From: Ceratodon purpureus
Lineage: Eukaryota; Streptophyta; Bryopsida; Pseudoditrichales; Ditrichaceae
DNA: 64,000 nucleotides
Direction of reading: 5' to 3'
Assembly: GCA_014871385.1 (NCBI GenBank)
Contig: CM026429.1
Span: 7,474,642-7,538,641 of the forward strand
Made by a program: the position numbers and the translations under genes. Shown here in pieces: positions 4,651 through 27,057 of the stretch; position 1 is the first letter of the stretch; each line of letters begins with the position of its first letter. The notes under the pieces were generated by a model. It saw only the letters and a program-made list of their open reading frames with translations, was not told where the DNA came from and made no database searches.

Positions 4651-5495
4651 AGTTACATGGTTGCGGTATGGAGTTTACTGTCCATTGGTGTGAAGAGGGC
4701 ATTAGTACTTTTTGAAAGTGAGAGTATCTACAGTGACAAAGCAAAGGGGGTAGATTAGACCATTTGGGACCTCACCCCACCTTTCACAGGAGAAAATGAA
4801 CTGAAATCATGCCCCCTTCGCACCGGGAGGTTTGTAACTTTGGGAAGTGCACCTTAACACTATGTACTTGAGAAATATCTGTTTTTGTTCACATTGAAAA
4901 TTTCATGAACTAGTTATTTAGGACTGGACACTAACAAAGCAGCAAAGGTTTGGATGTGAACTTTCAGACCCACTTCGACATGAGCAACTTAACTGCAAAC
5001 TTAATAGCAATCTTCCTTGGCCTTTCCATACCACTGGATGAAACACCCCTTTTATACTATTTTCGGAGTTGTGCATTTGTTCCACAACAACTTCCCACCA
5101 CTGACTTCTCACCCCTCTTCAACCCTCAACAAGTTGTCCCAATTTCATTGCCACGTCGACTGCTGACTAGGTTCGGAAATTAACTGCCCTTCCTGGTGTG
5201 AATGCCGAAGTTCATACCACTGCGCTTCCTGCGAGGGTACCAACTTCGCACCTCCAGGTGCAAAGGGGGCCATCAAACAATTTGAGCAGCCCATATAATC
5301 AATTATATAACATTTTGAGTGAAAATTAATAATATGTTAGTTTAAATCACGAAGGGAATTGGTTTAGTGGTGATAGAGTATTGGAGGGACGATAGTGCAA
5401 CCAACACCTAAGGACCCTTAGAAACATCTGGTGCGCAGGTAGTGAGGTCCCGCAGTAAGGTCCCGCCGTGAAGCATGTCGCAGAGAGATGACCTT
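4651..5495. other. Spacer between the two CACTA elements
   Basis: This 845-bp stretch separates the small and large CACTA insertions. It contains no recognisable gene. Open frames of up to 110 codons occur on both strands but resemble nothing I know. The two elements have different termini and different target duplications (AGT and CTT), so they inserted independently into this DNA. Confidence 0.5.
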
Positions 5496-6645
5496 CACTA
5501 GTAGCGAACTTGACGTTTTTCATTTCGTAGTTTCCGGAGACTGACGCTTTCCACTGGAGAGCTGTGGAAAACCGTCCCCTCGCCTGTCTGTCCGCTGTTC
5601 CCGTTGTGAAAACTGCATTGACCAATGAGAGTGCTCTGCTTTTCCAAGGATCCGTGTGTTTCGAGGTCAGTGGGTCCATGGTTGAATTCAGTGTGCTTCG
5701 TAGGTGATAAGCACCACTTTAGTTTACCCATCCCGCTGTAATTTGTATGTTTACTGCGATGAAGGTGCCGCGGAGTTGAGCAACTGGGGTAAATTTGTAT
5801 AATTACTGCATCCGGCGAAGTGTAAATTGAGAAGGGTACCTCGAATTCCAAGCAGGCTTGGTAGAAACGTGCAAACAAAGGTCATCAATTCCTCATACCA
5901 CGAATTTCCATTCAGTTATAACGAATACTTCATTCAGCGTAGAACGGTGCAGACATGATAACCAGGTAATGACATCATTATAAAAGGGTTCAAATAGGGT
6001 TCAGACCCGTTTACATGGCAGAAATGCAACATTAGATGCCTAGGTTAGTTGGATGTTCCGCTGTAATCAGAAGCCTCGTAGTAAAGGGCTGGGAGGGATA
6101 CTCTTCCAGATTTCCAGCGTTCTCGTATCCATTGTTTGGCAAACCGATTCACTGCTAGTTAACTCCCAAGGCATTATATACTAGCATTATATACCTATGG
6201 GGTTGAGCACATCCGGCAGGCAGAAGTTAGTCTAAATCCCCCCTGAATATTGTATTACCTAACTCACTCGAAGTGTTACACTAACAACTGTATCTGTACA
6301 AAGCTTCTACTCTGAGGAGGGATTCTACTCAAGCTCTAGGAGCGAGACTCTTACGAAAACAAAAAGCAAAATTCAGAAACTCTTGTCATCTTCCTCTTCT
6401 CGGAATTCGTCTTCTTCATGCTTAGTTTCCACCTGAACTTCATTACACATCACAGGTTGCAGTAACCTGCTCATTCACTCTGAATCGCTTTACCGATCTC
6501 GAACAATGTCAAAGCAGTGACAAACACTGTCGTCGTCGCTAAGGACGATAATCTCCTTCTCAGCCACACCCCCGGCAGCCCCTTCTACGCTGTTTCCTGA
6601 CCCCATAGCTCCTGCGCATGGAATTGAATTCACAAACGAAGGAAG

Positions 6646-8365
6646 TCAGCCATCGTGTTTGCAGACATCGATAATGTTTCTCAAAGTAAGCTCCGAATGA
6701 GGTAAGTCGGAAGGAGGAGAAATGCAGTGTAGAGTGTAGATCTTGCCTAGTACAGACAGCGGAAGGTTGCGTTTACGGAGAGGGGTGAATTGCGGCGTCG
6801 CATTATCTCCAAGCTCCAAGACGTACATCCCCATAGCCGCCCCTTCTGTGTCCCTCTCAGCGGCGTCCCCCATAACGGATGCCATAAGGCGGTTGTCCAT
6901 TCGATAGACAGCATCCTCGCGGATGTGGTTGTCCACAACGCTCCCACCTGACCCTACCGTCCTCTGCAAACGCCATGGTCGGACGCTCCCACCCGTCCCT
7001 TCCTTCCCCTGCATACGCCATGGTCGGACGCCCTGCTCTGTACGCTTCTGCTTCCGGGCCGGTGTGATGTCGATGTAGCTGTGCTCCTCGCTTTGGCGCT
7101 TTCCAGAGACACTGGATGCCTGCCCCATAGTCGGGGATTTCGAGTGGTACTCGAAGAAGCAGGTGCTACCATGCCAGCGTTGCGTCAGGTTCCCGGGACG
7201 AACTCGTGAATATGGACCCGATCCCTGGGAGTCTCCCTGCAAGGTATGTGCAAGGTTGTCTTCGTGTCCCACGTCATGCGTCAAGTGCCCTGTTTATAAA
7301 TCAGAACGCCCGGTTAGATACGCAAGGTTACTCTCTGCCTACAACAACTTCCAGTCATACGATGTTCTCTCTACAATTTTTGGCCAAAAAACAAGTACAA
7401 AGCTGTAGAAACCATATCCCGGAGGTTTAGTCCTCTACCGATGGAGATGTTGGCGGCATGCGTGCGGGGGAAGACGTTGTCTCCGTCGGAGTCATTCGCG
7501 GCTGGGGTTTGTCTACGATCGTCGCCCTCAATCTCTTTTCCTGTGAACAACCAGAATGTGAGGCTCTTCAGCAAGAGTTCCTTGGAAATTGAAACTTAGA
7601 AGGAATGAGGTGATGCGGAAGGGATGGAGGATTGTTACCTCTGCTGCAGGCACCCTCGGTGATGACCACGTCGTGCTCTTTACCGCTATCGGAGCTTGCA
7701 GAGTCCGATGATGGCTCCTTCGATGCCTGCATTCTCTGTCCCCACAGCGGGCGCTCCACATCCGTGGAAGGAGTGGCCTGCAGCCAGCGTGCGAGGTTGA
7801 AGGTGCTTGCTGCGGTGAATTTCCGAGCATTCCTGTTGATCTCCCAGTCGTCGGGAGCGCCTTCTAAGTCCTCCTCATCTCCCGGGAACACCTCATTCTC
7901 GGGCCAGACGCCCTCTCCTCTGGCGCACTTGGCCTTAAGATCTTCAAACGACTCGAATGGGAGGCTCATCTTCTTTCCTCTCCGGCACTGCTTCATAGCA
8001 AATCCTGCCCAATCGACGGCATAGCCCATTTTCTCGGCTATCAACCCCCTTGCAAAAGCCAATCCGATGGCCTTTACTTTGCCAATGGGGCGCTGATGAG
8101 TCGCCTGGTATAGGAGTTCAATAGAACGTTGCATCTTCGGGCTTTCACATCTTCCGGGGCGGTCGTAGCGGAAACGTCCCCCTTCCATTGGTCCCCAGCG
8201 TTTGATGCAGTCGCCGACGGAGACAACGCCCGAGCCCATGTAGCCACGCTCACCACAACGGATGCCGGGGATGTACCCGACATCGTTCAGGCCCTGGTCC
8301 CTATGGAGCCAATCCTTGGTGCCTTTGACAGGCAGACGGTATGTTTCCTCGCGAAGGGAAGCCAT
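6646..8365 (-). CDS. Unrecognised accessory gene of the CACTA element (about 490 aa, 3 exons)
   Basis: I do not recognise this protein. Predicted exons on the minus strand are 8365-7639, 7540-7439 and 7289-6646. They join in frame through GT-AG introns (donors GTAACA and GTAGAG, acceptors TTCACAG and AAACAG). The product is about 490 aa. Residues 1-200 look globular and include a basic stretch (KQCRRGKK) followed by an acidic one (GDEEDLEG). The C-terminal third has a basic patch (PARKQKRT), a plausible nuclear signal, and a duplicated VRPWR(M/L)Q segment encoded by a roughly 54-bp DNA repeat. It lies wholly inside the transposon, on the transposase strand, about 4.3 kb beyond the transposase stop, with GC content like the other element genes. 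It may be an element accessory protein or a captured host gene. The last exon could contain a further intron that I missed. Confidence 0.55.
6950..7045 (-). repeat. Roughly 54-bp coding tandem duplication
   Basis: Two adjacent, slightly diverged copies encode the repeated GVRPWRMQ and SVRPWRLQ segments in the last exon of the accessory gene. The plus strand shows CGCCATGGTCGGACGC twice. The reading frame is preserved in both copies. Confidence 0.65.
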
Positions 8366-9837
8366 ATCTCTGCTCTGCGCGGTTTACGGTGAACTCATTA
8401 GATACATCTCAAAGGAAACAGCGGACTCGTTGATTAGCCATGGCGGGGAAAACAAGCACTCAATTTGGTACAGTTTAGGCTGCATGGCTAAAGAAAACGT
8501 GAATGACGAGGAAGAAATGGTGCACTTACCAGGTAGAAGCGGCGAACAAAAGGGTCGTGTCGAGTGGGATGAGTAACCTCTGCAACCTACTCCGGGTACA
8601 GATGCCGTTAACGATTACTCCCGTAGTACCCGTAATTCACCACACAAAGATCTGCAAGACATTGAAAGCGGTCCCAAAAGTTTAGGTCTAGGGTTCGGAC
8701 GATGTCACGTTTCTGGGTTCACCAATTCAAAAGTTTGCGGACGCGGCAGAAGCAGAACAACGGACAATGCGGAATTACATTACTTACATCAATGTGGGGG
8801 TCGACTGGGTGTGAAGCAGGGCGTACCTGTGCGGGAGCAGATCTTCTCCGGGCCTGCTACTGGGTCGGGCTTCTGTATCGCAAACCCTGGGAAACACTTG
8901 GTTCTCTGCGTCGCTCCTGTAACATACGCGGGTTGTGTTAGAAGAGTAGTGTCACAATGCTCCAAGGTTTCGATGGGGAACGCTGGTATAGGAGGGATTA
9001 CAAGAGGTCATTAGCGGCAAACATACGGGTCAACAATCTAATGGAGCATGGTAATTCAGCATGGTTTGTACAAACTCGAGTGCAGGAGGACTGAGAGCAT
9101 GGGGGTGCAGAAAGACGGAATTGATAAGCAACGACACCACGAGACACGGTACAGACGATGTAGGAAACGCGGATTCGGAACTACGCTAGAACGAAGCAAC
9201 TTAGAGGGGACGCGGTACAAGACGAGAGTACATTCGGAAATGCCATACCTGAGTTAGCACCGTGAAGAGGAGGTGGGGAGGCTTCGAACTGCTGCGGACT
9301 GAGGCCTTCCTACCAGCTGGAGATGGTGAAGACAGTGCGGGATTGTGGGGAAATGATGCGCTATTTATGAGCGCTGGAACGCGTCCACGGATTCAGCAAT
9401 CGGGCACCCAGCGAACTCCTGGGATTGGCAGCTGCATTGCCGGAATGGGGATGTTATTTGGCCCAAAGTAGGGATCACGGGAATGGGAGAGCGCGGTTTA
9501 GGGTTCAAGCTCCGTCGGACTTGACATCATCTAGAGTGGACAAGGTGGCTGTCTTCGCCCGTCTCACGATCGCTTTCGTGACCCCCGCGTCTCATCACCA
9601 TGTTCATTAGTGCCTGGGACTGCAGAACCTCCCATCGGTAGGATAACTGGATTGTCGGAACTCGTGTTACAACGTGGCTGACGTTGTATGAACGGTAAAG
9701 CATCGCATCAACGGGCTTAACCTGTCACTGGATTGAGGGGTAGAAAAAGGTATGGATTATGTCAGAAGTCAGTCCAATTGAGGGTGAATTCGACTATTCA
9801 TACTAATTGATAACAGATTTCACATGTTTACCTTAAT
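8366..9837. other. CACTA interior without a recognised gene
   Basis: About 1.5 kb between the accessory gene and the nested solo LTR. Short frames on the plus strand (up to about 100 codons) have no recognisable domain. GC content matches the rest of the element. It may contain the promoter of the minus-strand accessory gene. Confidence 0.4.
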
Positions 9838-10472
9838 GATAGTGTTAAAGGGATTTTCTGCCTTTTTACCTAGGAGCAGTTAACTAGGAGCAGGAACAGT
9901 AAACTGCTAGGAGCAGTAAAAGCAGTTAGGAGCAGTAAAACAGTTAGTTACTGCAGATTTCTTAGTTACTGCGTTTTGGATGAAGTTTTGACAGTCGGAT
10001 GAAAAATCGACTTGGATGAAAAACGGACTGATTGGAGGATGACGGCTAGGGTTTGGGGGGTAGTGAGGAGTGAGAGCATGGCGGCTCTCACTCTCTCTCT
10101 CAGCCTCTTGTGTTTTCAGAGGTATGGTTAGGAGTTAGGAGGGGTTAGGAGGTAGGAGAGGATAGGATACTGCTGTAGATCAGAGTTATGGACAGTACGG
10201 TTGTACTTGATGGAGAAGTAATGGAGAAAAGACACATGGAATTCACAGATCTGAGTTGAGTATTGAATATTAGGGTTAGGGAGCATTGAATGAAGAAGCT
10301 TTACATTGATGATCTGATAAGAGGGCAAGATCAGGATTCTGGTGTTAGTAGGATCAGGTCAGTAGTAGTAGAAGGGGAATGGTCAGTACTACATTTTTTT
10401 CAGATTCCATTTGACTTAGTAGAAGTAACCAAGCTTTATAAGGGTGAAGCTTAATCACCCTTTAACAGATAG
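9838..10472. mobile_element. Solo LTR (625 bp) nested in the CACTA element
   Basis: The LTR runs 9843-10467. It begins TGTTAAAGGG and ends CCCTTTAACA, a 10-bp perfect inverted terminal repeat in TG...CA form. It is flanked on both sides by the 5-bp target duplication GATAG (9838-9842 and 10468-10472). No second LTR or internal coding region is present, so this is a solo LTR left by recombination between the two LTRs of a full element. Copia or gypsy type cannot be told from the LTR alone. Confidence 0.92.
9871..9950. repeat. Short AGGAGCAG repeat cluster inside the solo LTR
   Basis: AGGAGCAG occurs four times within about 80 bp, interspersed with CAGTTA and CAGTAAA variants. It lies in the first 110 bp of the LTR, where enhancer or transcription-factor motifs usually sit. 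A regulatory role is inference only. Confidence 0.6.
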
Positions 10473-11890
10473 CCACACAAGGCTTCTGAACATAATCCTC
10501 TCGGATGTGACAAGACGGGAGGTCATGTCACAAGCCGTGGAAGACTTTGTGGGAGACAAGCAATACCCACACCACCAAATACCTGCAAAATAAATGTAGC
10601 AATTTATACTTGTCACACCTTCCATTAGGCCGATATATGCATAGATCGCAAATACTTTTGGAGTGAAGACCAGCAATTACAATGTGAAAGAGTGAGGCGG
10701 AGTACCGATTGGAAATCTGATCCCACGATGGTTAGAATCGCTATCACATACTCAGGAAATGTAGTGCGCATGGTACATGTGGTCGCTGACTCTGGGCTTG
10801 CCACTTCTGCAGAACACTGCTCAAAGTACAAGCATATTAATTATCAGCATATGTAGAGTCTACCCAGATACAGCTATTGTTCTAGACTACCAAATTCAGG
10901 AACCCGGCAATTTCAGGGGAAACATAAGTACCGAAACGCGAGTGGCAGTTCCATCGTGGTTGGTAGGCCGGCACGGATTCCTTGAAGTCACCAAATTAAG
11001 ATCTGCTGTGTACGGTTGAGCAGATGACTCCAACCTTTGCACGTCAGAATCCACCTTGCCAACCAGGGCTGGAAATACCCATCCATGCTTCAAAATAAAT
11101 ATTCCACAATGAAATTCAATCAGAACTCTTACAAGGTCTATGGGTTGCCCTACCGTTGTATGTCAAGCACTAGCATATGCTCACTCAAATATGTGAGTGT
11201 CCATGTTGGTATTTGAATTCTGTATTTCATGTTAGATCTTAGGCGGAAACGAAGATACAGAGTTATAGTTTGGATGTCAAAGTAAAGTGTAACATTGTGT
11301 ATTTTTTGGTAAAAACATCCAAAGATTTGATAACAATGTTTGTAGTTTTTTGTGCTCTGTGGAGTGTTTGTTTAAATGGTTTATTGATGTAGGTCAGTGT
11401 TAAGCTAAGTCTCTTCAATTTGGCTTCCTATGTTATCTTTTTACTGACTACTCCAAAGTTACCAAATGAAGCAAAGTAGTGAATATGGCGTACACTATTT
11501 GAAAGGACAGTCCCATCTACGTAGAGACAGCTTAGAAAATCACCTGTCCTTGCGTACAATTTCGAATGTCACATGATGTGAGGTGGGGCCATTCTGCAGG
11601 CTCTCCATACAGTTGGCAAGCACCATTGTCCCTGTCAAAAATAATCACGCATCATTAGTCAATGGCCGTCATCGTCTCATAATGGGTAAATATGTCAAAA
11701 TCACAAGGCCAGATGAAATTGAACATCATTTCGAATACGCACATTCGAGAGCAGATGAGACATTCGGTAACCTACTTAGTCTGTGACAGCTCATGTCCCT
11801 GTCCATTCCAAGATGGATGTAGATTGTACCTGTAATTCAGGGCACAATTATAAGACTATTCCTGAAGGCTTCAGAATGCACGAGGTATCC
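10473..11890. other. CACTA interior between the solo LTR and the MDR fragment
   Basis: No complete gene is visible. The minus strand near 10.47-10.59 kb follows an acceptor-like TTTTGCAG and could be a further decayed exon of the MDR oxidoreductase seen at 11.9-12.4 kb, interrupted by the solo LTR, but the match is weak. The rest holds only short frames. Confidence 0.35.
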
Positions 11891-11898
11891 GAAGTCGT

Positions 11899-12360
11899 TG
11901 GAGATAAACATACTTCTGGAATGACCCAGTGCCGGACTGGCTTCCTTCCGCTGTGAAAGGGATCACCCGCTGCCCTTTGTGGAGCTTCGTCACTCCCTCG
12001 CCAACCTGTCCAATTGCATCACCCCGAGTAGCTCAAAATCTGTCAATCGTTCTCGACAATCACGTTTCACATGGTTTAGGGAGTATTTTCCTAAGAGGGC
12101 AGAACAGTCTTGTATGAAGTTGACGGAAATTCGTGCTCACCTCGTAACCAATGCCATAACCCTCCAAGCCTGCGATTGCGCCATTCGCAATTGCGCAAGT
12201 GCGAAGTGTGATCAAATCCGTGGGGTTTGAGAAACTGCAGAATGATGTGCGCAACCATGTGCCCTGGTGCAGGTTTGGGGGTAGGTTTTGTCACTAATTC
12301 CAAAGTGCTCAAGGGATCCTTCGCGTTGTAGCGGTCTTGCACAATCGCAACATTCGCCAT
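11899..12360 (-). pseudogene. Captured, broken MDR-family oxidoreductase fragment (quinone/enoyl reductase type)
   Basis: On the minus strand an ATG at 12358-12360 opens a frame with the N-terminal pattern of medium-chain dehydrogenase/reductases: a short beta strand, then a PTPKPAPGHMVAH segment (the usual P-x-P-x-x-G-x-V-x-V). A 1-base slip near 12.23-12.25 kb shifts the frame. The next frame reads NPTDLITLRT and GLEGYGIGYE up to a GTGAGC donor. The next exon-like block (about 12.03-11.90 kb) reads GQVGEGVTKLHKGQRVIPF, the conserved G-x-G-x-x-V-x-x-(L/F)-x-x-G-Q-R-V region. Downstream cofactor-binding exons are not clear. The frameshift makes this a pseudogene, probably a host gene captured by the transposon. 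Confidence 0.6.
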
Positions 12361-12633
12361 GCCTCAATCTACTATTCTTCACGCTTCAATTCTGTTCCCT
12401 GCTAATATACAAATGACTCTGTACACAAGAGAGAATGCGTGAGGAGTGTTTTTTTATAACCTCAAGCAAAGAGAGAAAACATCATGAGCTACCCTCTTTG
12501 AATTATGGCGGGCTACCAACCGATTGTGGTCCCAAGGGAAACGTTTACCTCATCATATGGAACGGCATATGAAGTGGTAGGGCTCGAAACAAGATGAAGA
12601 AATTACTTACACACATGCTGTCGGTGCGTGTGA

Positions 12634-15600
12634 CTACATGTCGTCCATAACATCAGCGTGTTCATCCTCAACTTGGGTCTCATCTGCTTCGCCTCCCTCG
12701 TCTTCTGTCTCGTTATCATCTCGGTAGTCGTCCTCTTCGTAGGCCGCCTCCTCGTCCCGTTCCTCGTATGCCATGACCTGGTCTATGTCAACTTCGAGAA
12801 CGGGCATACCGGGAGGGAAGTCGTCCTCGACCACTGTATCGTCTGTCATCCTGGGATTTAGAACAACGTCTGGTCTACCTGGTGCTGAAAGTATTAGGTC
12901 GTCCCGCTCTGATGTGACTCTCCGAGCCCTGGGTTCTATGTGCCGAACCACTTTCCATTCAGGATCATTCGGGTCGTCAACAAAGTACACCTGAATGATC
13001 GTCATCCACACAGTCAGACGTGACAGAGGCGTGTTGTAATAGGGTCAGCCACATGGAGTCTTTCGGAAACCTCGCCACAGCCCTCAAATACGAGTTATGA
13101 ACAATCACCAGACGATCCTAGTAAATAAAGTCATAAAATCCTGGTAAACATCAGTACTAACACAGAACTCACCTGCTTGGCGTGGCTGGGTAGTATAAAC
13201 GGCTCGACGTTCAGAGGCATTCTCGCATTAAACTTAACTGACCAGAAGCCGTGAATGTTTTGCCGTATAGTCCGATGGCCCTCCAGATCTGGGCGAATCC
13301 AGGAGCACCTTAACACGTTGTACTTCCGGACGCCGTAGTCAACCTCCATGATGTCGGATATAATGCCTACGTACTGTAGCGCAGCTTCAACGGGGTGAAG
13401 ATCGGCCCTTGACGATCGGCACTCTTGGGTGATAATCGCGGCAACACCGGAGTCGTAACTTACGCTACTACGTCCTTGTTCGCTATCTGTGCGGAAATGG
13501 TAGCCATATGAGTACATGGAGTTATAGTGCTTGACCGTTGGGTACGGCAGTCTTGACATGGATCTCAAATCGTTGCTAACCTCTTCTCCTCCCCCCTCTC
13601 TCTCTCGCACTGTGTCTTCCAACCACGTGGTGAATGGGGTGAAACGGCGGCCGGGCCTGTTTTCGTGCTGTCTTCTTAAGGCATCGTACTCTCTGCTCAA
13701 AAATGGGTGCCCATTTAATTCAGAACGTCAGAATCTAGTTGCCGTAGACACGTAGTTACGGGTACATGTAAGGGACTGTAACTGATTGGCCATCAAATGG
13801 GAGGAAAGAAACCTGAACAAGATGTAAGGGACTGTAACTGATTGGCCATCAAATGGGAGGAAAGAAACCTGAACAAGATGTAAGGGACTGTAACTGATTG
13901 GCCATCAAATGGGAGGAAAGAAACCTGAACAAGGGTTCGGTGATGAGCGAGTGTCGGACAATGTGGTCGTGAACTGCAACCAAGTCTCTCTCCTCCCATA
14001 CGATCTCCCTTGGATTGCCCTCGAATACCTCACCGTTGTCCCTTTCGTCTTCCTCTAGGTCCCACAGAACTCGAGCAAGTCCTGGATACAACCGAAAGTG
14101 CTCCGTGACAAACCCAAGTGTCTCTTCGAACATGTAACCCTCCGCGATTGAGCCCTCTGGTTTCGCTTTATTTCTGACCATGCCCTTGAGGTGACCAAGG
14201 TACCTCTCGCCGCTGTACATCCATCGGGCATGTACAGGGCCGCACCAGTAGAGCTCCCTTGGCAGATGAAGCACGAGGTGACCCATGGAGTTCCAGAACG
14301 CAGGTGGAAAGTGAATCTCAAACAATGCCATTGTCTCCGCGACGTAGTCCATAAGTGGTATAAGCTCCGACCTCTTGATAATCTTGTCGCAGATAAGCTT
14401 GAATGAATGTCCGAGTCGAATCATTGCTACACAGGGCCCATTCGGAAGTAGTCCACGAATGGCTGCTGGTAAGATCTCCTGATTTAAGATATGCCAGTCG
14501 TGAGTTTTCAGGAACTGCAGACGCCCTTTCTCAAGATTGACCAGTTTCTCGAACTTTGCGCAGTGGTCCGTCGGAGTCTGCACCGAGCGTATGGTCCGCA
14601 ACAGTTTCTCTTTCTCATCCGGTCGTAGCACGTACGGGGCATGCGGCTTCAGGTAGTTTGATGTCGCCCCTTGACGTACAAGGTGCAACTCGGGCATGAC
14701 ACCAACTTCTTGCATATCCTTACGTACTGCTATGGTGTCACTCTCACCTAACACGAATCCCATGGCAGTCGCAATCACGTTCTTCTCAGTGTGCATCACG
14801 TCTATTGTATGTCGCACGGGCAATTCCTGCACATTTGCACATATTCATCAGTATATTGGGAAGGAGACAATCTGTATACGCAATTACTACAAGGACTGGT
14901 GCAGTTGCCTGACGTATGATCTCTTCGTCCCCAAGGTAACCCGACGCAGTGGTATGCGGTAAGCACCAACTGCTATCGCTCACGACCCACCATGACTGAA
15001 CTCACATGTCCAGAGCCTGAAGTCCAGATGCGGTCAAACGTGCTCGAACAGAGCACTCAAACCCGGGCCCAACACATCATGAGAAAGTGAAACATTCCCG
15101 AGCAGGTTCACTGGTTAATGAAGGTTTGGAAGTCAGCGTCCCGGCTGCGTCATCCACTCCACGAAATGGTCTTCTGAAATCCAGACTCCCCTACCGCAGG
15201 CACTCTATGCATTCGTCAACAAAATGATCATGTCGAGTAGCACTGACACTTAGAGATGTCACTTTCGAAGCTCATTATGTTAAAAGTACAAAGTTTTGCC
15301 TTGGCGCGTCTCACAGTACAATAGAGGGCTTCAGGTTCCCGAGAGCATCAAGTTGCACCGGCCATGACATATTGACACATCGACACCCAATTATGAACAC
15401 CTACAGTTACTGGCCGTGAACATAAACAACGTCATTCCGACCACATAGAGTAATGAAATGCACATGTATCGCGAAGGGGAAGTTCCATGCTAACCTGCCA
15501 GTACGGAAGCCTATATAGTCCGGTGACCCGTTTGATGCCGTGTCGGCGTACTGGATCATTCTGGCTCGGCCTTCCCTCTTCCTCAAGCCAACGTTCACGT

Positions 15601-17709
15601 TCACGCCCCCATTCCAAGACTTGGGCTCCGGTGGCTGGTTGTGGAGCCGTGTCCCTCTCCACTGTGCCGAAGTTATGCACGTCCGCGCGCATGGGGTGGT
15701 CCTCAGTCAGAAACTTACGTGCACAGTTATAGTAGATGTTTTTATGGAGGACTTTTGAGCGCCGTGACCGGTAACCACCTGCGCAGACCGGGCATCCTAT
15801 GAAGCCCTTTGTCGTGCGACCAGCCATTACCCCGTATGCCGGGAAGTCTCCGATGGTCCATATGACCATCGCCTTCAGCAGAAAGTGGGATGATTGTTTG
15901 TACGACGCCGCATCGAAGTAGTAAACACCGTACGTCCAAAGCTCAAGCAACTCGTCAACTAGAGGGCCAATGAACTCGTCGAAATGGTCCTGCGTCACCG
16001 ACTTCGGCCCTGGAATGAGAACTGCAAGCATAAGAAAGTGTTTCTTTGTGGACAACCAAGGGGCCAAATTATAGTTCATCATCATGACTGCCCAGATCGA
16101 GTATGTACTCCGCTTGTCTCCACTGGGGTTGAATCCATCTGCGATCATGGCCATTCGGATGCTTCTGTCCTCAGTACCGAACTCGGCTAAATACCGGGTA
16201 TTGATCCACTGCCACTGCGCTGAATCAGAGACGTGTTTCATCACTTCGTTGTCGTGCTGCTGAAGTGCATGCCATGTCAACGCGGCGGCCTGGATCGGAC
16301 TTCTATACATTCTCTTGAACCGTGGAGTCAGGGGGAACACCCGGTTGACCTTCTGGGGTACCATTGACTTCCCCACCCGTTTCTTCCGTGGAGCACGGCA
16401 TTTGGGGCAGACGGTGGCTCTCTTCAGATCACCTCGAAACAGGCGGCAACCATTCGCACACGCATCATAGCTCTTGTAGCTATGGCCTAATCTCTTCAAA
16501 TACTCAGCAGCCTCACGGTAACTTGTTGGCAGTGAGTTAGGTTGCGGAAATAATGTAGTACTGAGCAACCTGAATAGCTCGTCCATGTACATGTTCGTGC
16601 ATTTGTGTACCTTTCCGCCGTTGAGTAGCAAGTATGTTGTCGCCATACACGAATACAAGGATCCGGTAAATAAAGGAGTGAGAGCTGCCTCTTCTAACGC
16701 GGCGATGGATATGTCAGTCTCGTCATCTGATTCCCCCCACTCCATTTCGTCCTCGTCAGTACTCCCTTCGCTATCCGACTCATACATCTCTGGTGGAGCT
16801 GGCTGGTCATGTTCCGCATCGGAGGTTGGTGCAGGGAAGTCGCCGTGGTGTCCGTCTTCACCAACACCCCTGCGTCCTTGTTCACCGGTGTTGGTCGGCA
16901 GAGGCAACTCCGCTGACGCATCTGTCTCCGCAGCCACGTCGGGATGCTGCGCTGGAGAGAGAGGCCGTGCTTCGGCTTCGAGATGCTGTGCTTCGGCTTC
17001 TTCCCTAATTCGATCCCCTAAATCGAAGGTCTCCATTACAATCCTGTTCATGTCGACTCCCGGGTCCAACATCCCAGGCCGCAACTGACGCCTGCGTTCC
17101 AGTGCTTGGGCCCCATAATACCAAGATATGTGGTCATCCCACTCTGTATCAGAATCATCAGCATCGTGGCCCTGCGGGAAACAGAGAACCCCGAATTAAG
17201 CAGGTGCGAAGATCCCGAACACGAGCATGATAGGTACGAATTCATCCAACAATGTCTCTACAATTACCCTTACGCATGTCACGAATAAATAAAGGCAATG
17301 GACATTGTCTTGGGCATGGCGTCCCCTTCTGGAGCGGCCCCCGAACAGTGAAAGATTTCGCCTAATATGCAATATGCGCAACTACACCGCATAGAAGCGG
17401 AAAAGCCAAGGACCCCTCGCACCATGATTGAATTGAAGCGACAAAGACAGGGGTCATGAAGAGCGGCCGGCTGGAAAAGAAACTCACCTCCGTGCTGCCC
17501 ATGAAATAAGGATGCCTCCTGTTCTTTCTAATGCATGTTTGGTAATTGGTCAGCGACAGCTCCGTTTCACGCATGTGTAACCTGCAAGGGCAGGGCAGTC
17601 GCCTCCAGCGTCCTCGCTGCGCGATCTCAATCTCCCGATTAAGCAGCTTCGTCTCCCTGGCCTCAATTCTGCGCTCAGAAGGGCGCATGCTACGAATGCT
17701 TTCCGCCAT
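12634..17709 (-). CDS. CACTA transposase (TNP2/TNPD type), 5 exons, about 1,225 aa, intact
   Basis: Predicted exons are 17709-17488, 17171-15495, 14826-13925, 13692-13173 and 12990-12634. All joins keep frame and no stop interrupts the 1,226 codons. Exon 1 resembles the plant transposase-associated N-terminal domain (CPCRLHMRETELSLTN then a PYFMGSTE end). Exon 2 has an acidic linker, then the Tnp2/Transposase_21 catalytic region, including CPKCRAPR, the VYYFDAASYKQSSHFLLKAM block and GCPVCAGGY. Exon 3 is a DUF4218 domain (HTIDVMHTEKNV, then a WHILNQEILP segment). Exon 4 is DUF4216-like, continuing in exon 5 with VYFVDDPNDPEWKVV and a very acidic tail. This order (Transposase_21, DUF4218, DUF4216) is standard for plant CACTA transposases, which act in the nucleus on the CACTA ends. 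Exon 3 ends inside a 56-bp tandem repeat. The open frame suggests potential activity. Confidence 0.9.
13765..13932. repeat. Three 56-bp tandem repeats at a transposase exon/intron boundary
   Basis: Near-identical 56-bp units start at 13765, 13821 and 13877. The first differs at its opening base. On the minus strand each unit contains TTGTTCAGGTTTC. In the copy nearest exon 3 this sits at the predicted donor CAG|GTTTCT (exon end 13925). Each unit therefore carries a potential splice donor and also a plausible TTGTTCAG acceptor. Confidence 0.93.
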
Positions 17710-19533
17710 CTCGCAAACCAAATAGAGCGAAAGACGTCCCCACCACCTAGTAAATTGCTGCAGAACGCATTCCCATCCTGAAACACAAAGTGGGTCCACG
17801 AGGTTAGCATCCCGACACAGACGTCGCGAGAAGAGAGCGCAGTGCACTCCATAGAATTCAACAAACCGTCGGGAACCCTAGACTCCGGCGCCTCCTCTCA
17901 GCATTGTTGTGTATGCTATGTAAGAGCAATCCCACACGAGGGGTCCCAAAAAGTAAAACAGTTTCGCGCAACTAAGTCATCGCCATGGCTACAGCGATCG
18001 TTGCAATGTCGTAGAGACAGACATCGAAATGGACATGGCCAACTTCTGAAACCCTACAAACAGTATCACCTAAGTAAAGTACACTCTTCTCGTAGTTTCT
18101 CGAATACGGTATACGGTGGGTCGTTAAGGGGCAATAAACGGTATGATAAAGGCCACGAGTACGGTGTTGGTCTGGAACGGTACAACAATAAGGTCGGAGA
18201 GACCTGTCACGGCCATCAACGGAACAGTCCCCCTGGTACTCTTGAAATCTACCCAGATCATCTCCACTACACATAAAATAGGATCCCACGTTCTGCCCAA
18301 CAATCCCTTACTGTCCTGACGTCAGTGGATAGCATCGTAGTTTTCGAGGTCCACTACTGACTAACTTGCTCACGACCACTGACTATCCTGCTTTTGGACA
18401 CAAGGTTATGCTTTCTGTCAGAGAAACAAAGCTACATCGTGGACATGGCCTATGAGTGTCCACCATGGTTTCGGAGAAGAAGTAGAGGACAGGATTCGCG
18501 AAGTCGTCACTAGGGAAGGCAATGTACAACACATCTGCGGAAGTTCCAATTGTCCGGGCGATGTCGCAGGCACGGGAAACAACAACTAATAGAAGGGGCA
18601 GAGGAGGGCGGGGAAAGCATATTGAGGCAGGATGTCCAATGGGTAGACCCAGTTGCAGCTACCGTGAATTAGGGTTCCAGAAGCTTCACAGTGCACGACG
18701 GAATGCCTTACAGCACCGAATGCAAAGACGGACCTGGACAGTCGTTGGCGTGATTGAGTATCCCTCAGCCTCCGCAGAGTGAGAAATCACTCGGGTAATC
18801 CCCAGGCATAACATTGACGGTATGTCCTATACGCGCTCCTTGATAGGTGCCGACGATGTTTTCGATCCATAGAAAAGGACGAGTCAGAGATGGGTGTAGA
18901 GGCGGTTGAGGAACGCATAAGTAGACAGGAAGTGAAATGGCTATCCTCTATTGCAACTAACGTGAATTAGGGTTCCAAATGTTTCAGAAAGCAAGGAGGA
19001 GTGACTTACCGGACCGAGTGCGAAGGCAGAGCTGGACGGTCGTTGGAGTGATTGAGTATTCCAGGCTCGGGAGAGTGTGTAGTCACTCCGGTAATCGCAG
19101 GGAAAATATTCAAGGTATGGCCTATACACTCTCCTCTCCGTTGGGCCAAGGCTATTTTCGATTATAGGAAAGGTCCAATTTAATTTCCCCTATTGTCGCC
19201 ATGTCGGAGAAAACTCGGGAGCATGGTCGATGGACTCTACGGTAGTCCAACACATGTCGAAAAGAGACACTCTGATATACGAGGGCAGTCAGGCATGTTG
19301 TGGTAGGGTACGATGGCGTGATGGAGGTGAAGAGGCCGTGTGACTGGCCACTCCAGTAGTGGAGAAAGAGTAGCCGAATTTCTTGCGAAGGTGCGGCGCC
19401 CGTGACTTTACAAGTCCATTTTTGCTATGTACATCATAAATGTACTCTTGATAAAAACGCCTTTGGGATCGACACCTGAAGCAGTGGTTTGTCTCATGCT
19501 AAGTTCAGAATCCAGAGGTTGACTAGGGCGCAA
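17710..19533. promoter_or_regulatory. Long divergent intergenic region of the CACTA element with a 300-bp tandem duplication
   Basis: This interval lies between the transposase start (minus) and the first plus-strand frames, so it should hold both promoters. It contains two diverged direct copies of a roughly 230-bp block offset by 298 bp (18650-18880 and 18950-19175). GTGAATTAGGGTTCCA occurs at 18664 and 18962, and a matching TTTTCGAT...ATAG end closes both. No protein-like frame spans it. Promoter function is inferred from position. Confidence 0.5.
18650..19175. repeat. Diverged tandem duplication, about 300-bp period, in the transposon promoter region
   Basis: Copy A (18650-18880) and copy B (18950-19175) share runs such as GTGAATTAGGGTTCCA, CGTTGG(C/A)GTGATTGAGTAT and TTTTCGAT near the end. 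Small indels separate the copies. In En/Spm elements repeated subterminal motifs bind TNPA. These are internal but lie upstream of both main genes. Confidence 0.75.
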
Positions 19534-19671
19534 ATGGAGCACCGATTGGAACAACGGCGTCATCCACCACGGGAGCCCTGCGGCTGCAATGCGTACAAGG
19601 GAGATAGCGCACCAGATGCACCTCTGCCCATTCCCATTTTGGATACAGCGGGAGTGATCAACCCTTATCAG
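19534..19671 (+). CDS. Possible small upstream exon (weak)
   Basis: An ATG at 19534 starts 46 codons, rich in Arg and Pro then Ile and Pro, ending at a good donor (CCTTATCAG then GTATGTG). It could be a first exon of the F-box-like gene at 19959 or of another element transcript. I do not recognise the peptide, and no matching acceptor is decisive. Confidence 0.25.
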
Positions 19672-19958
19672 GTATGTGCACACATTCGTAACGGAGAGGT
19701 GATTGTTCTAAAGTGTGACATTGTGGAAGGGTTCTCTTAGTGTCGCGGTCAATTTCGAGAGTAGGCATCGTCATTTCCAGAGAGAGAGCGCGTCTGTATA
19801 TTGCGTCAGAGGGCCTTCTACGTTTCATGTTCCATTGCGAAGGCGCCCGAGCAGTCGAATTCGGTAATTGAAACGCTGTCTTCTCCTAGACCGTAGAGTG
19901 ACTTGTCCAGGAGTAGCCTTCGGTCGACATCTCTCATTTCCGCAAAGACGCCCTGGCT

Positions 19959-20513
19959 ATGGCCAACCACCGTGTGGAAGTACAGCAGACCCCGTCAGAG
20001 ATGACGCTCTCCTCCCCTCAAACGTTGTCTGAAGAACCTCAGCAGGCAGTGCAGAACCCGACTTCGTTGATACTTCAGCATGACCAAGGCCACACAGACC
20101 CTGACACTGGGGGTGCTTTGGAACTTCCGCCGCCCCCTCCGGGTTTCCTTGACGGCTTACCTCTTGACGTTGTACAAGATGTTATTTGGCCCATAATCAT
20201 GGACTCAGAAATTTACCTCGACAACTTTAGAGTTTGCTGGGAGCTGCGATGGGTCTGTCGCGGTTGGCGGAACTTTGTCGAGGTTCAACGGGAGTGGTTT
20301 CTCGGATGGCTTGCGTGGATAGCATTCCGAGACTCACAGCGAGATGACGTGCTCGACAGCTGGGACTTGGCACCGGACGCGGATGATGTCTATGTGCCAA
20401 ACCCCGCATACTGGGACTCGGAACCGGATGCAGATGACGTCTATGTGCCAAACCCCGAGGTCCTCCATGAGGGTGACGTGGAACCAGCAGCAGCGGCACC
20501 GCAAGGGGTTTAG
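19959..20513 (+). CDS. Small F-box-like protein encoded within the CACTA element (184 aa)
   Basis: A single uninterrupted frame starts at an ATG in good context (GCTATGGCC). After a Gln/Pro-rich N-terminus of about 65 residues comes LPLDVVQDVIWPII, then a helical Trp-rich stretch with WELRWVCRGWRNFV. This resembles an F-box: LP...V..I, then a conserved (V)C+.W pattern. F-box proteins join SCF ubiquitin ligases through Skp1. Here the motif is only suggestive and no substrate domain follows. The C-terminus carries a duplicated DADDVYVPNP segment, with 22 residues between copies, and an acidic/Ala tail. The gene lies between the divergent transposase and TNPA-like genes. It may be a captured host gene or an element-specific factor. 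Confidence 0.5.
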   Translation: MANHRVEVQQTPSEMTLSSPQTLSEEPQQAVQNPTSLILQHDQGHTDPDTGGALELPPPPPGFLDGLPLDVVQDVIWPIIMDSEIYLDNFRVCWELRWVCRGWRNFVEVQREWFLGWLAWIAFRDSQRDDVLDSWDLAPDADDVYVPNPAYWDSEPDADDVYVPNPEVLHEGDVEPAAAAPQGV

Positions 20514-20841
20514 AGTCCGTAGTTACTAAATAGCGTGCTTTGAAACTTGCTCATCCCACTACGTCTATGGCATTTGTACGAATTTGGAGTTGTGGTAATA
20601 GAGCGAACGTTCTCCTTGAACGCCATCGTTATTTCTTAAACCTTTGGCAGTCTATGTTGCCTGTCACGAGTAATTATGGTTTAACGCTTACACAGTTTGG
20701 GGTCGTGCATTTGCTTCGTGCAGCTTATGCCCGTATTACGGTCCAGACTGCTTTAACTTGTCTTTGTCTGTCCTCACGCAGGTCGCAGCACACTTCCTTG
20801 CTGGCGCCGTGGCTCTCTGCAATTCGAAGTTAGCTGAAGAC

Positions 20842-23800
20842 ATGTCTTCCAACAGCTACAGCTCGGTATGCCCTACCATGATCCCCCAAAGATGTCCCGC
20901 ACTTGTCCGATCATCCCTAACCCGCGTAGTTATCCATGGTCATTGCACTCTTATGTAATGAAGTCGTGAGCCAGCATTCGTGGTGTATTAGTCTTTCGGA
21001 TAGGTTTGTGAGAAGTCTGCAGTGAGTTTCCCCCACTGAAAGCGTGCATTTTTTTGCAGGGCGCTGTGAACAATGGCATACCGGCGATGTCGCAGTACCA
21101 GCAGAGGCCGATGTTTGTTTCACCGTGGGGAGGCACCATGATATTCCCGGGGGCTCCTACTACGTCCATCGGAGGAGGAAACCAAATGCAAATGTTGTTC
21201 CAAGGCTACCCTCCTCCATCAGTTCAATCCCAACCTGTTCCGGGGACGCATCAGCAAAATTCGGATAACGGCAGTCCTATGCCAGAAAACCGTGCCCAAC
21301 CGCAGGCCCTCCTGCAGTACAACCAAGCGCAAGCAAATATGCCAGGAAATAGTGTCCAACCGCAGGCCCTCATGCAGTACAACCCAGCGCAACCGAACAT
21401 GCTTGGCGGGAGCGGTAATGTCACCCCAAGCACTACGGTCAGCAATGGCGTATCCAGTGTGTTCTCTTTCGATAGTAGCAGTGGACAAACGAGGGGGTCC
21501 AGCTCAATGGCCGGGCCACAGTCCTCTCTGGCATGCGGTCCATCCTTTGATGCAAATGGCGTGCAGGTAGCCCTCAGCTCCCAATGTAATTATCCAGGAC
21601 AGATAGCGTGGACGCCGTGGGTAGATGGATGTCAAATCACGAGCATGAGCAGTGGTAATCAGCCAGTAGTAGGTCCCTTGGGCGGTCCATTGACACTGAC
21701 CGCGTCCCGACCCGAACCTCCAACAACCACCACTCAAGGTCCCTCGCAGGTTGCACCTACCATTTGGCAGGAGTCCAAAAAAACAGCCCAGCGCCGTGTA
21801 CAGCGACATGTGAAGAAGGTCTTCACCGAGAAGTCAAAGCAGTACCCAATGGACATCGCATGCACGGAGAAGGGGGACATTGATAAGAGCGTGCGAATTC
21901 ACGTACACAGGTACATAAGGGCAACTGCAAAACGCTTCTTGGATCTTTCGAAGATACACTTCAGAGACCACTCCAACGCCGAGCTGAAGGTTGTCGAGGA
22001 GGATGTCACTAGGCAGTACCACTTCACTCCATCCCTAAGACCTGGTTACATAACTTGGTACATAGAAGAGATACTCAGAACTTCACGGTACCAGTGGCGA
22101 AAGTATTGGGTTGCCACTGGGCGAGGACAAAAGCACAGACAATGTCCGGAGCGATTCTTCCCTTCGTTGGTGAAGTACTAAAACACTGCGGAGTCAGAGG
22201 AGGAGAGTCGGAGAATGAAGTTGGCACGAGCAGCAGCACGGAATGCAAAAGCGACAGCGCCGGAGGGATCCGACGTAGACTCTGTAGTCTCAAACGAGTC
22301 GTGGGACGTAAGCAATATCCACTCCAGATTGTCACTGCATCCATTTCTTACGTTTGACCAAGTATGCGTTAGACCTTACTGATAGCGTTGCTGTACCTCG
22401 CTAATATGCGTTTGTGTTGTTTTGACCACGATTCAGCCACTTCTGGACACGGAAGAGTCACCGGAGTACCTCCAATGGGATGATGATGAATTGGGCGACG
22501 ACACTGCGGAACTTGGAGCACCGGAGGACTCCTCGAATGACGTGCCACACACACAGGTGTGAAACAGTAATGGATAACGAACGTCACACCCATTTTGTAA
22601 TTCCCTTGTAAAGAATACACCGATCTCTCATATTCTACTGAGCCACAAGGTCCATTACAGTAGATATCATTGCGGTTTGTCGAGGCTCTGAACCGTAATT
22701 CCATTTCTGATGCTGAATTTGCCTGTGTGGACGCATTGGGAACAGATTGCAACATCTAAGACCCCCAACAGAGATGGTGATGTGGAAGTCGCAGGAGAGG
22801 TAAGCGCGCTCCATTCGTAGCTGTTGAACTAACCCGCACTCCGTGTGTCCCTCGGCATGCACTGTTAACCATATACCTGGTTCACTGTCATGGAATGGTT
22901 AAGAAGGTCGAGTCCTATTTTCACTAACAGAGAGAACTGCGCTGCAGAGAGACGAGACCTTTGCTACTGCGAGCCCTGCGTACGTCGAGAGATCGGTGGA
23001 TCACAGAGACACGGGCGGAGTGCCGAGAGAAGTCGCACGTGAACTCAACTCTCTGAAGTCGTCTATGTATAACATGTCAGTGTGGCGTGATGGCATGGAT
23101 AGGCAGATGGCGAGGAACTCCGAGCAGATGGCGAGGAACTCCGAGGATATGACTGACGTGAAGAAAAAACTTGACCTACTGCTGGAGCTACAATTGAATG
23201 GCCTCAGGAAGGGTTCGACAAGAGCGTCCACAGCGGAGGTTCTTGACAAGTCGGCAAATTCAAGAGGGAATTTCGAGCACACACCATCTCCGGCCACAAC
23301 CGACAACTCCAGAGAGCGCCCGCACATGCAGAAAACATTCTCTACATCCGGGGTATCCGACGATGGTCGGGACTCCGAATACGGTATCGTGAGAAGAGGT
23401 ATGGATCCCATCACAGCGACTCTTCTAAGAAACTGGCATTGTCCTACTCATTTGAGATCTCTGCCCCTCTACTTATAGTAGCTTCCCATTTTGACACCCA
23501 TCGCTGCGAATGAGATGTGCGACTGAGTCAGGGTTCCACTTACCTCGCAGATATGACTCCAGGAGGGGGTACAACCGTGAACCCAAGGTGCGACCCCGTA
23601 GAAGTCAATGGGAAGACGAACTCGCTCGAAGTAGGACAACACGTTCGTACGAACGAGCCATCAGACACGAACGATGACAACCCCTGTCTTGTAGTGAACT
23701 CGCCTATCCAAGCAGTGACGAGTACCAATGCGCCAACAGCGGCGCAGGCCGCCTTCGGAGCATACAACGACGATCTGTTCATGAAGACGACACCGAATCC

Positions 23801-24777
23801 CACGCCAACAGGTACAGACGTTGATCCCCTTCTTGGTTGACTAAACGTCTCGAATGAATCCGATTGTTATGAGAATCCCCCTTTGGCGTTCTTTGTCTCA
23901 ACTAATGCAATATTCCCAAATACTGTATGGTCCACAGGGAAGGAAACCGTGAAGCCCATTGCAGATAAAGGGAAGAAACGTGCCCTTGGATTAAAGAAAG
24001 CAGCACCTTCGGGCTGCGCCAATGGCACGATTGTGACCCTCCCTGAATCTTGCGGGAAAGATAGCACAGTTCCGCAGGAGAACAAAAAGCGACGCGTAAC
24101 GAAACGACCATCAAAGTATTTGGACAGTGTGCCCCCGAGCGACCTTAAGCCCCGATCAGACAAGGTGCTATACTACCCTAACCCTGACCCACTCTAGCTC
24201 TACCTCTTTTCAAGGACATTATGGCGTGTTTGATGATGTGGATAACTCTCAAGTACTAAAGAGTAATAACTGTTTTCCGCAGATTCCAATATCACCTCGA
24301 AGTGCGGTGTGGATCCTACACCCAGACCATCCAAATGAAGCGGTCGCCCTTGGACGCAGCGGTCCTCACTGGCGATCCCAGAAGAAGAAACTCATCCCCT
24401 CTGTACAAGGTATTCAGTGGGAGTTTGGGATGCAGCAAGTGACAGTTGAGCACGTCTACCCCCAACATGCATCAACGAAGGTCCTGTATCCCGAGCATCA
24501 GCGAGAGGGGATTGAGAAACTGTCTGATGCTATCAACGGGGCGTTCGCCGAAGATTCCACCATCGTTTGGAAAACCACCCACCTCCGTTACGTTGAAGTA
24601 AGTAAAGTCAAGTAGCCGATGTGTAATTTCCATATTCTGGTTTCGATGGGTGAATACTACGGTGCAATGCAGGAGCTACCCTGGCTTACGCGGAGAGAGA
24701 CGACGACAACAGCACTCCATGTGCCTAATGATACAAGCGGCACAAGGCCCCGGCACAGACGGCTGCAGCCACCTTGA
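20842..24777 (+). pseudogene. TNPA-like second gene of the CACTA element (9 exons, one in-frame stop)
   Basis: Predicted exons are 20842-20865, 21060-22307, 22437-22556, 22746-22799, 22948-23398, 23551-23811, 23938-24164, 24283-24597 and 24673-24777. Every junction is GT-AG and frame-consistent, giving 935 codons. The N-terminal 200 residues are Gln/Pro/Ser-rich, with a repeated N-x-x-QPQAL(L/M)QYN(Q/P)AQ motif. A basic domain follows (about residues 245-380; KKTAQRRVQRHVKK, then WRKYW). Later come acidic and coiled-coil segments (MARNSEQ/MARNSED duplicated near 23.1 kb), a Lys-rich stretch (NKKRRVTKRPSK), and a folded C-terminal block (SAVWILHPDHPNEAVALG). This matches the TNPA-type DNA-binding partner that CACTA elements encode beside the transposase. 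One TAA at 22179-22181 interrupts exon 2 in frame, right after FPSLVKY. The protein is either truncated there (about 381 aa, keeping the basic domain) or the copy is defective. Confidence 0.7.
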
Positions 24778-25811
24778 ACTTGCGAAGCTAGCGGAGTTGA
24801 TTGTAGAGGTCCTGTTTTCAACCCCAGGGAATGGTCACTGACCGTCTAACTCCATGTGCTGGCAGCCTGTGAATAAAGGTTTTTTTGCTTAACTCGAGCA
24901 AAGCCCGGTACATGTGTTATCGTTTTTTATATGTGAAATGTATTCAGGGTATTACCGTATGTATAATGAACAAAGCAGGCACAGGAATCCATCTATGGGA
25001 GAGGCACTCATGCGTAAGGAGGGTGAGGAGTTTTCCCAGATGAATTCGAATCGCTGACTGGGAAACAGGACTCAGATTTGTACATGATCTGGGTCTCACT
25101 TGAGACGATTTATAAATGAATTTTCTTCTGGTATAAGGCCATTCCTTTTGCTCGGGTCCATATTGGAGCGATTTCTGTGTCTTGCTATCCTATTGAAATA
25201 GCAATTGCAAAGCTTCACCCTAAACCAGTTCACTCAAATGCTTCGACTAATGGGTCTGTACATCATCATTGGATTATTCATCAAACACGACGAATATCAT
25301 CCAACCAGCAATGACACAACATTCATCAATTAGGACAGGTTTCATCGAAACCCTAAATCTGAAGAGGAATACCGAGCTTCCACCTGTCGCGTGGCTATAG
25401 GGTGTTGGCATGAGATGTCATCCCAAGATGACATCCTGAACGAGATGTTGGCACCTGAATGGCCAATACCCCGCAGCAAGGACGGGCCAATATCCCGGCG
25501 TACGCGGTTATCTGGCTCCTCGAATAAAGGGCTCCGATTGGCTGGATAAAAAATAAGAATTCATTTACCCTCGGTTTACCGGAGTTACGTTTTACGAAAA
25601 GTAACATTGTAACTGCGCGCAGTTAGTTCCAAGTTACCCACGGAGGGTGCGCTTCGACAGGGCCCACCCCGCGTCGTTTTGTGACGAAAACCACTCAGTA
25701 GAACTCGGAGGTCAGGTCCCCGCGTTTCTCCGCTGCCGAGTGGAAACCATGTCGCCATGAGAGCTTTTTGCCTATTTCAGGGAATGAAAAACGACCATTT
25801 CGCTACTAGTG
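24778..25811. other. Right subterminal region of the CACTA element
   Basis: About 1 kb from the TNPA-like stop to the right terminus, with no gene. The 3' transcript end probably lies near 24.88 kb, where AATAAAGG is followed by a T-rich run. It includes a palindromic GATGTCATC...GATGACATC at about 25.42 kb. The last 13 bases form the inverted terminus. Confidence 0.55.
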
Positions 25812-27057
25812 CTTGGTCTTCCCAAGAATTATACTGAGTTTCTCTTCGAGTTTTCGTTCCCTCAGTGTGCAGACTGATCCCTCCACGTAAGTCGGTTAGC
25901 TTTACCTGTAGAGCTGAGCCTTACTTTCCATTCCCTGGTCTGTCAGGGTTGCTTGCCTTCGGGCATGACCCCTGTCTTCGCCCCAATTTCGGACAAGAAC
26001 TTCATCGCATTTTTGGTTTGACAGGTGAATGTTATCTTGTCTTCAAAGGTGAAGGTTTTTCGCAGAAAATCTTGGACTTCGTGTGGTGGTGTCCTGCGAG
26101 AGTATATCAATGGCGGCTTCTCATCTTCCACCTTGATCTAATCTGAAGTTTTGGCCAATGGAAGACTGAAGCTTACGCTTGGACGTGTGCCAGGTATGGA
26201 ATAAGCTGACGTGGGAAAACACTTTCATGATACCATCCCATTACGATTTGAGTGAGGAGGTCATGATCAGTCTAATTTTACTTCCGTTATGAAGAATTGA
26301 GTGTGCGGAAAGCATGGCTCTTTTCACAGCATCCAGTCTGCCTTTCCGGTGGCCCTTTCGCCCATCTTCACTATCGATAGGTTCGAGGTCATCTGTTTTT
26401 TGAGATGATAAAATACAGAGTTAACGGACTGAATGGTTTGGGGATGATACAACTGATGAGACGATTTGGTTCTTTTTGCGTTGCACAAGGTCCAAGATGG
26501 TCGCCATGTGGACGGAATATAAGTGGTTCAAGACTGGCGAGGCTTTGGCCTTTCATGTAAGGAAGATCACGCCACAAGAAGCACTCATTGAGTATAATCC
26601 TTTGAATTTCGCAGAGATCCACGGCTCCAGTTTCGGAGCAACCACATCGGTGCAAAGTTAGTACAATTGTATTCATCGTGCTGAATTCAGGAATGGAGAT
26701 AAAAGAAGTGCCCATATATTATTCTGGTTTGCTTTCAACTCAGGTACAGATAATTCAGTTAACATAGTAACTGAAATTTGTAACAAACTTTGAAAGCTCA
26801 TTACCAGCTGGCTACGTCGTCCAGGAATTGAACCGATCATCTTTTTGTACAAATGGGATACCAATACGACTAGTAAGAATGTAATCCAGTGACTACAGCT
26901 AAATTCGTGAAGGCGATTGTACACTTTACACTTGCAACAGTTCTACCCTGGACATCCTCCGACGTTGTTTCTGGAATAAAATGGGCAAATCCATGGTAGC
27001 AAACAGGAGTGATCTGGTGTCGGGGAGGCTCTAATTCCTGTGTATCTGAGGAGGTTC
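25812..27057. other. Intergenic region between the CACTA element and AGT1
   Basis: No gene is recognised. On the minus strand a 62-codon frame (26131-25943) contains a well-composed peptide (VQDFLRKTFTFEDKITFT...) that might be an exon remnant of an unknown gene, but nothing confirms it. The AGT1 3' untranslated region should occupy the right end. Confidence 0.4.

Follow-up and report, generated by a model that had tools for sequence, protein, structure and literature searches.

What is the 20,316-bp CACTA transposon that occupies positions 5496-25811 of a 64,000-nucleotide stretch of the genome of the moss Ceratodon purpureus (GenBank assembly GCA_014871385.1, contig CM026429.1, positions 7,474,642 to 7,538,641 of the forward strand; this whole stretch is called the window), and which of the genes between its ends are its own? 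Descriptions of CACTA elements in plants usually give them two genes. We consider it likely that the window element is a structurally complete, probably non-autonomous member of a large CACTA clan built on one four-gene plan: the transposase (TNPD) and a protein of unassigned family, which we call U1, on one strand; an F-box-like protein and a TNPA-like protein on the other; and, separating U1 from TNPD, a variable slot. If true, the persistence of this plan across deeply diverged families would place two accessory functions in the basic equipment of CACTA elements.

The sequence CACTAGTAGCGAA occurs with no mismatch at exactly two sites in the window, at 5496 on the plus strand and at 25799-25811 on the minus strand. 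Two or more matches at up to two mismatches were also obtained in 23 of 100 shuffles, so that the pair alone is not rare and the weight is carried by other evidence. The ends form a terminal inverted repeat of 29 nt with 90% complementarity (5' copy at 5496-5524, plus strand; 3' copy at 25783-25811, minus strand), and the triplet CTT directly flanks the element on both sides as a target-site duplication (5493-5495 and 25812-25814). Searched against the genome, 505 bp of the 5' terminus gave nine matches and led to five other places, where the fetched stretches contain near-full copies: C13 (19,349 bp), C8 (20,077 bp), C5 (19,574 bp), C6a (19,157 bp), and C6b (22,816 bp). All five start and end at the base homologous to the ends of the window element, the 5' terminal base being identical in each, and all six copies have perfect duplications with five different triplets among them (CAT, CGT, TTG, ATG, and CAT, in the order above, and CTT in the window). 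A 3'-end probe gave 17 matches from 14 candidates in the genome, mostly to more diverged ends. The preliminary description of this DNA had claimed one CACTA element with these ends and a CTT duplication, and had named as a check a search for full copies with other 3-bp duplications and as a refutation copies ending at different bases; the inverted ends, the flanking triplets, a tnp2-type transposase, and the uniform boundaries of the five further copies all agree with that claim.

Copies exist at several degrees of divergence. The window element, C13, and C8 are 93-95% identical to one another, C5 is 89% identical to the C6 copies, and the two groups share 73-75% identity. The C6a and C6b copies (C6:562329 and C6:67052241; loci L018-L023 on a 110.5-Mb contig) are 99.6% identical and carry different duplications (ATG and CAT), and this near-identical pair points to recent transposition on C6.

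We located coding stretches by the periodicity of mismatches between copies and exon edges by conservation, splice consensus, and conserved splice sites; ratios of nonsynonymous to synonymous divergence (dN/dS) compare the window element with C6a and come from a simple Nei-Gojobori count, for which the standard errors are approximate. The transposase, on the minus strand, has five exons and 1225 codons: exon 1 at 17488-17709, with its start codon at 17709; exon 2 at 15495-17171, matching PF02992 Transposase_21 (188 bits, cutoff 28.6); exon 3 at 13925-14826, matching DUF4218 (100.5 bits, cutoff 27); exon 4 at 13173-13692, with a DUF4216 match below the cutoff (24.7 bits, cutoff 30.6); and exon 5 at 12634-12990, with the stop codon. 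Its dN/dS is 0.16 over 1221 codons (z 12.2), and its frame is open in five of the six copies, with one stop in C6b. A 56-bp unit is repeated three times with no mismatch at 13766-13933, mostly in the intron between exons 3 and 4, and all three units align to a single stretch in C13 and C8.

The main exon of U1, also on the minus strand (7571-8365), starts with MASLREETYRLP; it has a dN/dS of 0.14 (z 5.2), and its part 7640-8365 is open in all six copies. A probable second exon or C-terminal part lies at 6649-7293 (minus strand, boundaries approximate), where constraint is weaker (dN/dS 0.46 over 6700-7293) and where a FSPLR-like motif is, by eye, common to the more diverged C2 family described below. 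The F-box-like protein is encoded on the plus strand by a single exon of 184 codons (19959-20513), open in five of the six copies, with one stop in C6a. Its dN/dS is 0.40 overall, 0.16 in a conserved domain at residues 59-125 (z 2.9), and 0.92 in the N-terminal 58 residues, and the protein carries an acidic C-terminal tail.

The TNPA-like gene, on the plus strand, has at least four exons, one boundary being approximate: exon 1 (21087-22271), exon 2 with a putative coiled-coil stretch (22945-23386), a short basic exon (KRPSKYLDSVPPS; 24081-24161, boundaries approximate), and a C-terminal exon with the stop codon (24283-24615). Their dN/dS values are 0.17, 0.34, 0.30, and 0.13, of which the third is not significant alone (z 1.5). 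Exon 1 is open in three of the six copies, with one stop each in the window element and C6a and a frameshift in C13; the C-terminal exon is open in five and split in C6b. Differences in exon length among the copies are multiples of three, apart from a 1-nt insertion in the C13 TNPA-like gene and the C6b insert, and every exon tabulated (U1 main, TNPD, F-box-like, TNPA exon 1, and TNPA C-terminal) is open in C8 and C5. These ratios and reading frames indicate that each of the four genes is under purifying selection. The insert in C6b (loci L021-L022) measures ~3.66 kb (3,660 nt) and carries a 734-residue open frame whose kind is unassigned.

A more distant relative, the C2 element, is 17,616 bp long and flanked by an ACA duplication; it has CACTACTAGC ends, with matches at 25 of their first 30 positions. 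All four genes are present, arranged in order and strand as in the window element, at identities far below those among the six copies: 45.8% over 227 residues for U1, 46% over 63 residues for the F-box domain, and 57, 64, 52.5, and 54% for TNPD exons 2-5. Within the TNPA-like protein, identity is 37% in exon 1, 38% over 53 residues in the coiled-coil part, 61.5% over 26 residues in the basic exon, and 62% over 108 residues at the C terminus. In a genome search with U1 (150 scored of 952 candidates), below the six copies come a set with 71-80% identity and then a long tail, most of which falls at 44-54%; dozens of entries in this tail, among the 150 listed matches, share one identical score at 48%. 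The place C2:10277636 and dozens of equal-scoring places, found with both U1 and the transposase and several of them on small contigs, represent an amplified CACTA family, and this C2-type amplification looks like a recent burst.

We further find that the arrangement is repeated across the genome, as searched with U1, the F-box-like protein (150 scored of 478 candidates), and TNPD exon 3 (131 of 2100). A U1 match on the opposite strand, in divergent orientation and within 25 kb, accompanies 59 of the 150 listed F-box matches, compared with 4 on the same strand and none in convergent orientation. Within 20 kb of the 131 listed TNPD matches, on the predicted side and strand, U1 is found at 88, the F-box-like gene at 72, both at 57, and either at 103, whereas controls with wrong geometry gave 0, 0, and 2 for U1 and 1, 0, and 4 for the F-box-like gene. 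What is counted here are places rather than independent families, and the amplified family makes up 64 of the 131. Among the first 67 listed TNPD matches, which lie outside it, 36 have U1, 21 the F-box-like gene, 17 both, and 27 neither.

Several results weigh against our reading of the element. At least one partner is missing from 74 of the 131 listed TNPD matches, and both are missing from 28. Three of these 28 places were fetched: at one U1 is clearly present (E 1e-55), at another it is reduced to a weak remnant (E 1e-10), and at the third 7.3 kb hold none; because the U1, F-box-like, and TNPD counts all come from the matches listed, such absences mean little. The genome-wide geometry covers U1, the F-box-like gene, and TNPD, and the full four-gene plan is seen only in the C2 element and the six near-full copies. 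The TNPA-like protein matches no TNPA family in Pfam, so that its name rests on the layout, and a profile of its C-terminal part matched no PDB chain. Short subterminal repeats bound by TNPA are common in the superfamily, though not a requirement; the window copy has no exact-word array of them: no exact 8-12-mer occurs three times within 400 bp and one 8-mer does so within 800 bp, in a count of exact words at the ends of four copies that degenerate repeats escape. By the same count, a few 8-9-mers occur three to five times at the ends of C5 and C6a. The only clear array among the four copies lies at the 3' end of C8 (locus L012) and consists of a CGTAAAACGTAACT-like motif; it is possibly an expansion of TNPA sites. 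Finally, the F-box-like protein of the window has no Pfam match, and PDB profile searches with the F-box-like protein returned no F-box protein.

With these last two results, an F-box fold of the conserved domain is plausible, not proved. An alignment of 22 F-box-like sequences, some closely related (the window, C2, and 20 other places), gives the pattern lP...v...iWp..m.......n...c...R.V...gW...v.....W, in which capitals are kept in 22/22 and small letters in at least 80%. The best PDB matches were argininosuccinate synthase (E 0.3) for a profile of five close copies and a CLOCK protein chain (E 2.1) for a 16-sequence profile. It is possible, if rather doubtful, that the protein is some other helix-rich partner of the transposition complex and resembles an F-box by chance. 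Such a partner would agree with the lack of an F-box chain in the PDB searches, with the unmatched window member, and with the fact that a single domain sequence out of 16 scores above the Pfam cutoff (20.6 bits against 20.5 for PF00646, the F-box family). PF00646 is nevertheless the family matched by most members (6/16), followed by PF12937 F-box-like (3/16) and two unrelated families (1/16 each), and the P, W, R, V, W, and W positions are retained in every aligned sequence, both of which argue against a chance resemblance.

U1 is a protein family without recognizable relatives in Pfam or PDB. An alignment of 25 U1 sequences has 31 invariant columns, including C53, W57, G58, H90, C127, D172, D173, and W174. 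The best Pfam match is unconvincing (E 0.13, obtained by 2 of the 25 members), and a profile of these diverse sequences matched 0 PDB chains; with this profile an initial ubiquitin-like candidate from PDB (best E 0.042) disappeared. Of 31 pattern matches in viral contigs none was confirmed. The single match in prokaryote genomes, in a bacterial contig (33% identity over residues 74-124), lies in a frame that resembles by eye a bacterial membrane protein, and we rejected it as apparently due to chance. Silent divergence (dS) in the U1 main exon (7640-8365) is uneven, at 0.17 between the window element and C8 and 0.26 between the window element and C13, higher than the window-C8 values of 0.08 for TNPD and 0.06 for TNPA exon 1. 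Between the groups, U1 is lower than TNPD for window-C6a (0.33 vs. 0.43) and not lower for C8-C6a (0.44 vs. 0.45). This unevenness suggests that the U1 exon has possibly been exchanged among elements. As a guess, U1 may serve its own element as an accessory, perhaps by acting on DNA or chromatin.

The preliminary description listed a transposase, a TNPA-like gene, an F-box-like gene, an unknown protein, and a captured MDR as size and cargo well beyond the two-gene layout. All are present, and the genes do number more than two, but the TNPA-like gene, the F-box-like gene, and U1 are not extra cargo, given the selection on them, their order and strands in C2, and, for the last two, the genome-wide geometry. 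The MDR stretch is cargo, in the form of a fragment with broken frames. It comprises 655 bp between U1 and the transposase (11850-12504, minus strand) with pieces of an alcohol-dehydrogenase-like gene, one matching ADH_N (PF08240) at 18.8 bits, below the cutoff of 23.5, and the other without a match, and it has no match in any of the five other copies. Their U1-TNPD intervals are filled otherwise: 1003 bp in C13 and 1727 bp in C8, unrelated to the MDR stretch and to one another, and 3.7 kb in C5 and 3.3 kb in C6a, with ~1.4 kb in common at 82% identity, plus edges. Since the content differs between copies, the interval amounts to a single variable slot, filled in the window copy by the MDR fragment; the alcohol-dehydrogenase-like fragment is the only capture and, among the six copies, private to this one.

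Could U1 and the F-box gene likewise be host genes, riding by chance in an ordinary two-gene element of TNPD and TNPA? Capture of host gene pieces by CACTA elements is known, according to PMC13317346, and the MDR fragment is such a passenger, for which this explanation stands. In the case of U1 and the F-box-like gene this explanation is strongly disfavoured, and we regard it as very unlikely: passengers are not expected to retain the same order and strand in families whose corresponding proteins share only 46% identity, nor to evolve under purifying selection, and the two genes lie in fixed geometry beside more than half of the listed transposase matches.

Membership in the four-gene clan does not make the window copy an active one. 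The claim that it is complete holds for its structure and not for its function. Its TNPA-like frame ends prematurely at codon 365, and its transposase has other residues in place of two cysteines that the five other copies and the C2 family retain; on these grounds the copy is probably no longer autonomous. That it is autonomous and currently mobile is thus highly improbable, even with its ends, duplication, U1, F-box-like gene, and full-length 1225-codon TNPD frame all open or intact. An assembly artefact, in the form of a mis-join or a duplication by chance, has a negligible chance of explaining the element: the amplified C2-type family does occur in part on small contigs, a sign that repeats strain the assembly, but six colinear copies at different places, all with perfect and mostly different duplications, stand against it.

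How would such an element move and persist? In CACTA elements, cleavage at the CACTA ends is the work of TNPD, TNPA assists in recognizing these ends and bringing them together, and the duplication arises from insertion at a staggered cut of 3 bp. The case for this ordinary CACTA transposition is strong here: TNPD would cleave at the CACTA ends, the TNPA-like protein would bind and pair them, and insertion would produce the 3-bp duplication. The F-box-like protein may act as a bridge between the host SKP1-cullin ubiquitin ligase and a protein of the host (or of the element), in the simplest case one by which the element is silenced or restrained. More tentatively, and with considerable doubt, the clan may have a built-in SKP1-cullin-F-box (SCF) adaptor, each family using its own F-box-like protein to degrade a host silencing or repair factor, and this kit, with the undescribed partner U1, may have aided the spread to well over 100 places. 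Recruitment of the host ubiquitin ligase by the F-box-like protein, if it occurs, would add a new route by which a DNA transposon acts on its host.

Outside the element, the window holds traces of other genes. To its right lie a piece of an aminotransferase class-V gene (27615-28019, 47.5 bits) and a weak PHD-finger piece (31912-32334, 18.4 bits, below the cutoff). Another DNA transposon is represented by a DDE_1 endonuclease frame (49128-50309, 63.3 bits), which adjoins an open frame without a Pfam match (48231-49121). We also find a 933-codon open frame with no Pfam match at E 0.1 (40022-42820) and a frame for an FMO-like flavin monooxygenase (61383-62780, 130.8 bits).

In its CACTA ends, 3-bp duplication, tnp2 transposase, and second, TNPA-like gene, the window element resembles En/Spm of maize, Tam1, and CAC1. 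It differs from them in being about twice the size, in having two further conserved genes (U1 and F-box-like), in the position of the TNPA-like gene on the strand opposite TNPD, and in having no exact-word subterminal repeat array. Closer in size range and number of open reading frames, going by their description alone, are En/Spm families of increased size in the red alga Chondrus crispus, which span 16-20 kb with 4-5 open reading frames (Kojima et al. 2013, as reported in PMC6431247). The MDR capture recalls the Pack-CACTA elements treated in PMC13317346, here inside a full-length, gene-bearing element. Multi-gene enlarged CACTA elements and CACTA gene capture are thus already known; searches of the open-licence PMC literature, which did not extend to Repbase, gave no account of CACTA elements with U1 or with a conserved F-box-like gene. 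The same literature offered nothing against the view that giant CACTA elements are little described in bryophytes, and a Sphagnum genome paper names CACTA once (PMC9946827). Two analogies come from other kinds of genetic parasite. VANDAL elements, which belong to a different superfamily (MULE), encode the anti-silencing protein VANC, which binds short DNA motifs (PMC5735166), and thus, as here, carry a conserved non-transposase gene on a DNA transposon. The P0 protein of poleroviruses suppresses silencing (PMC6593998) and, like the protein considered here, is small, has an F-box-like motif, and is encoded by a genetic parasite; it is viral, and the likeness is one of analogy only.

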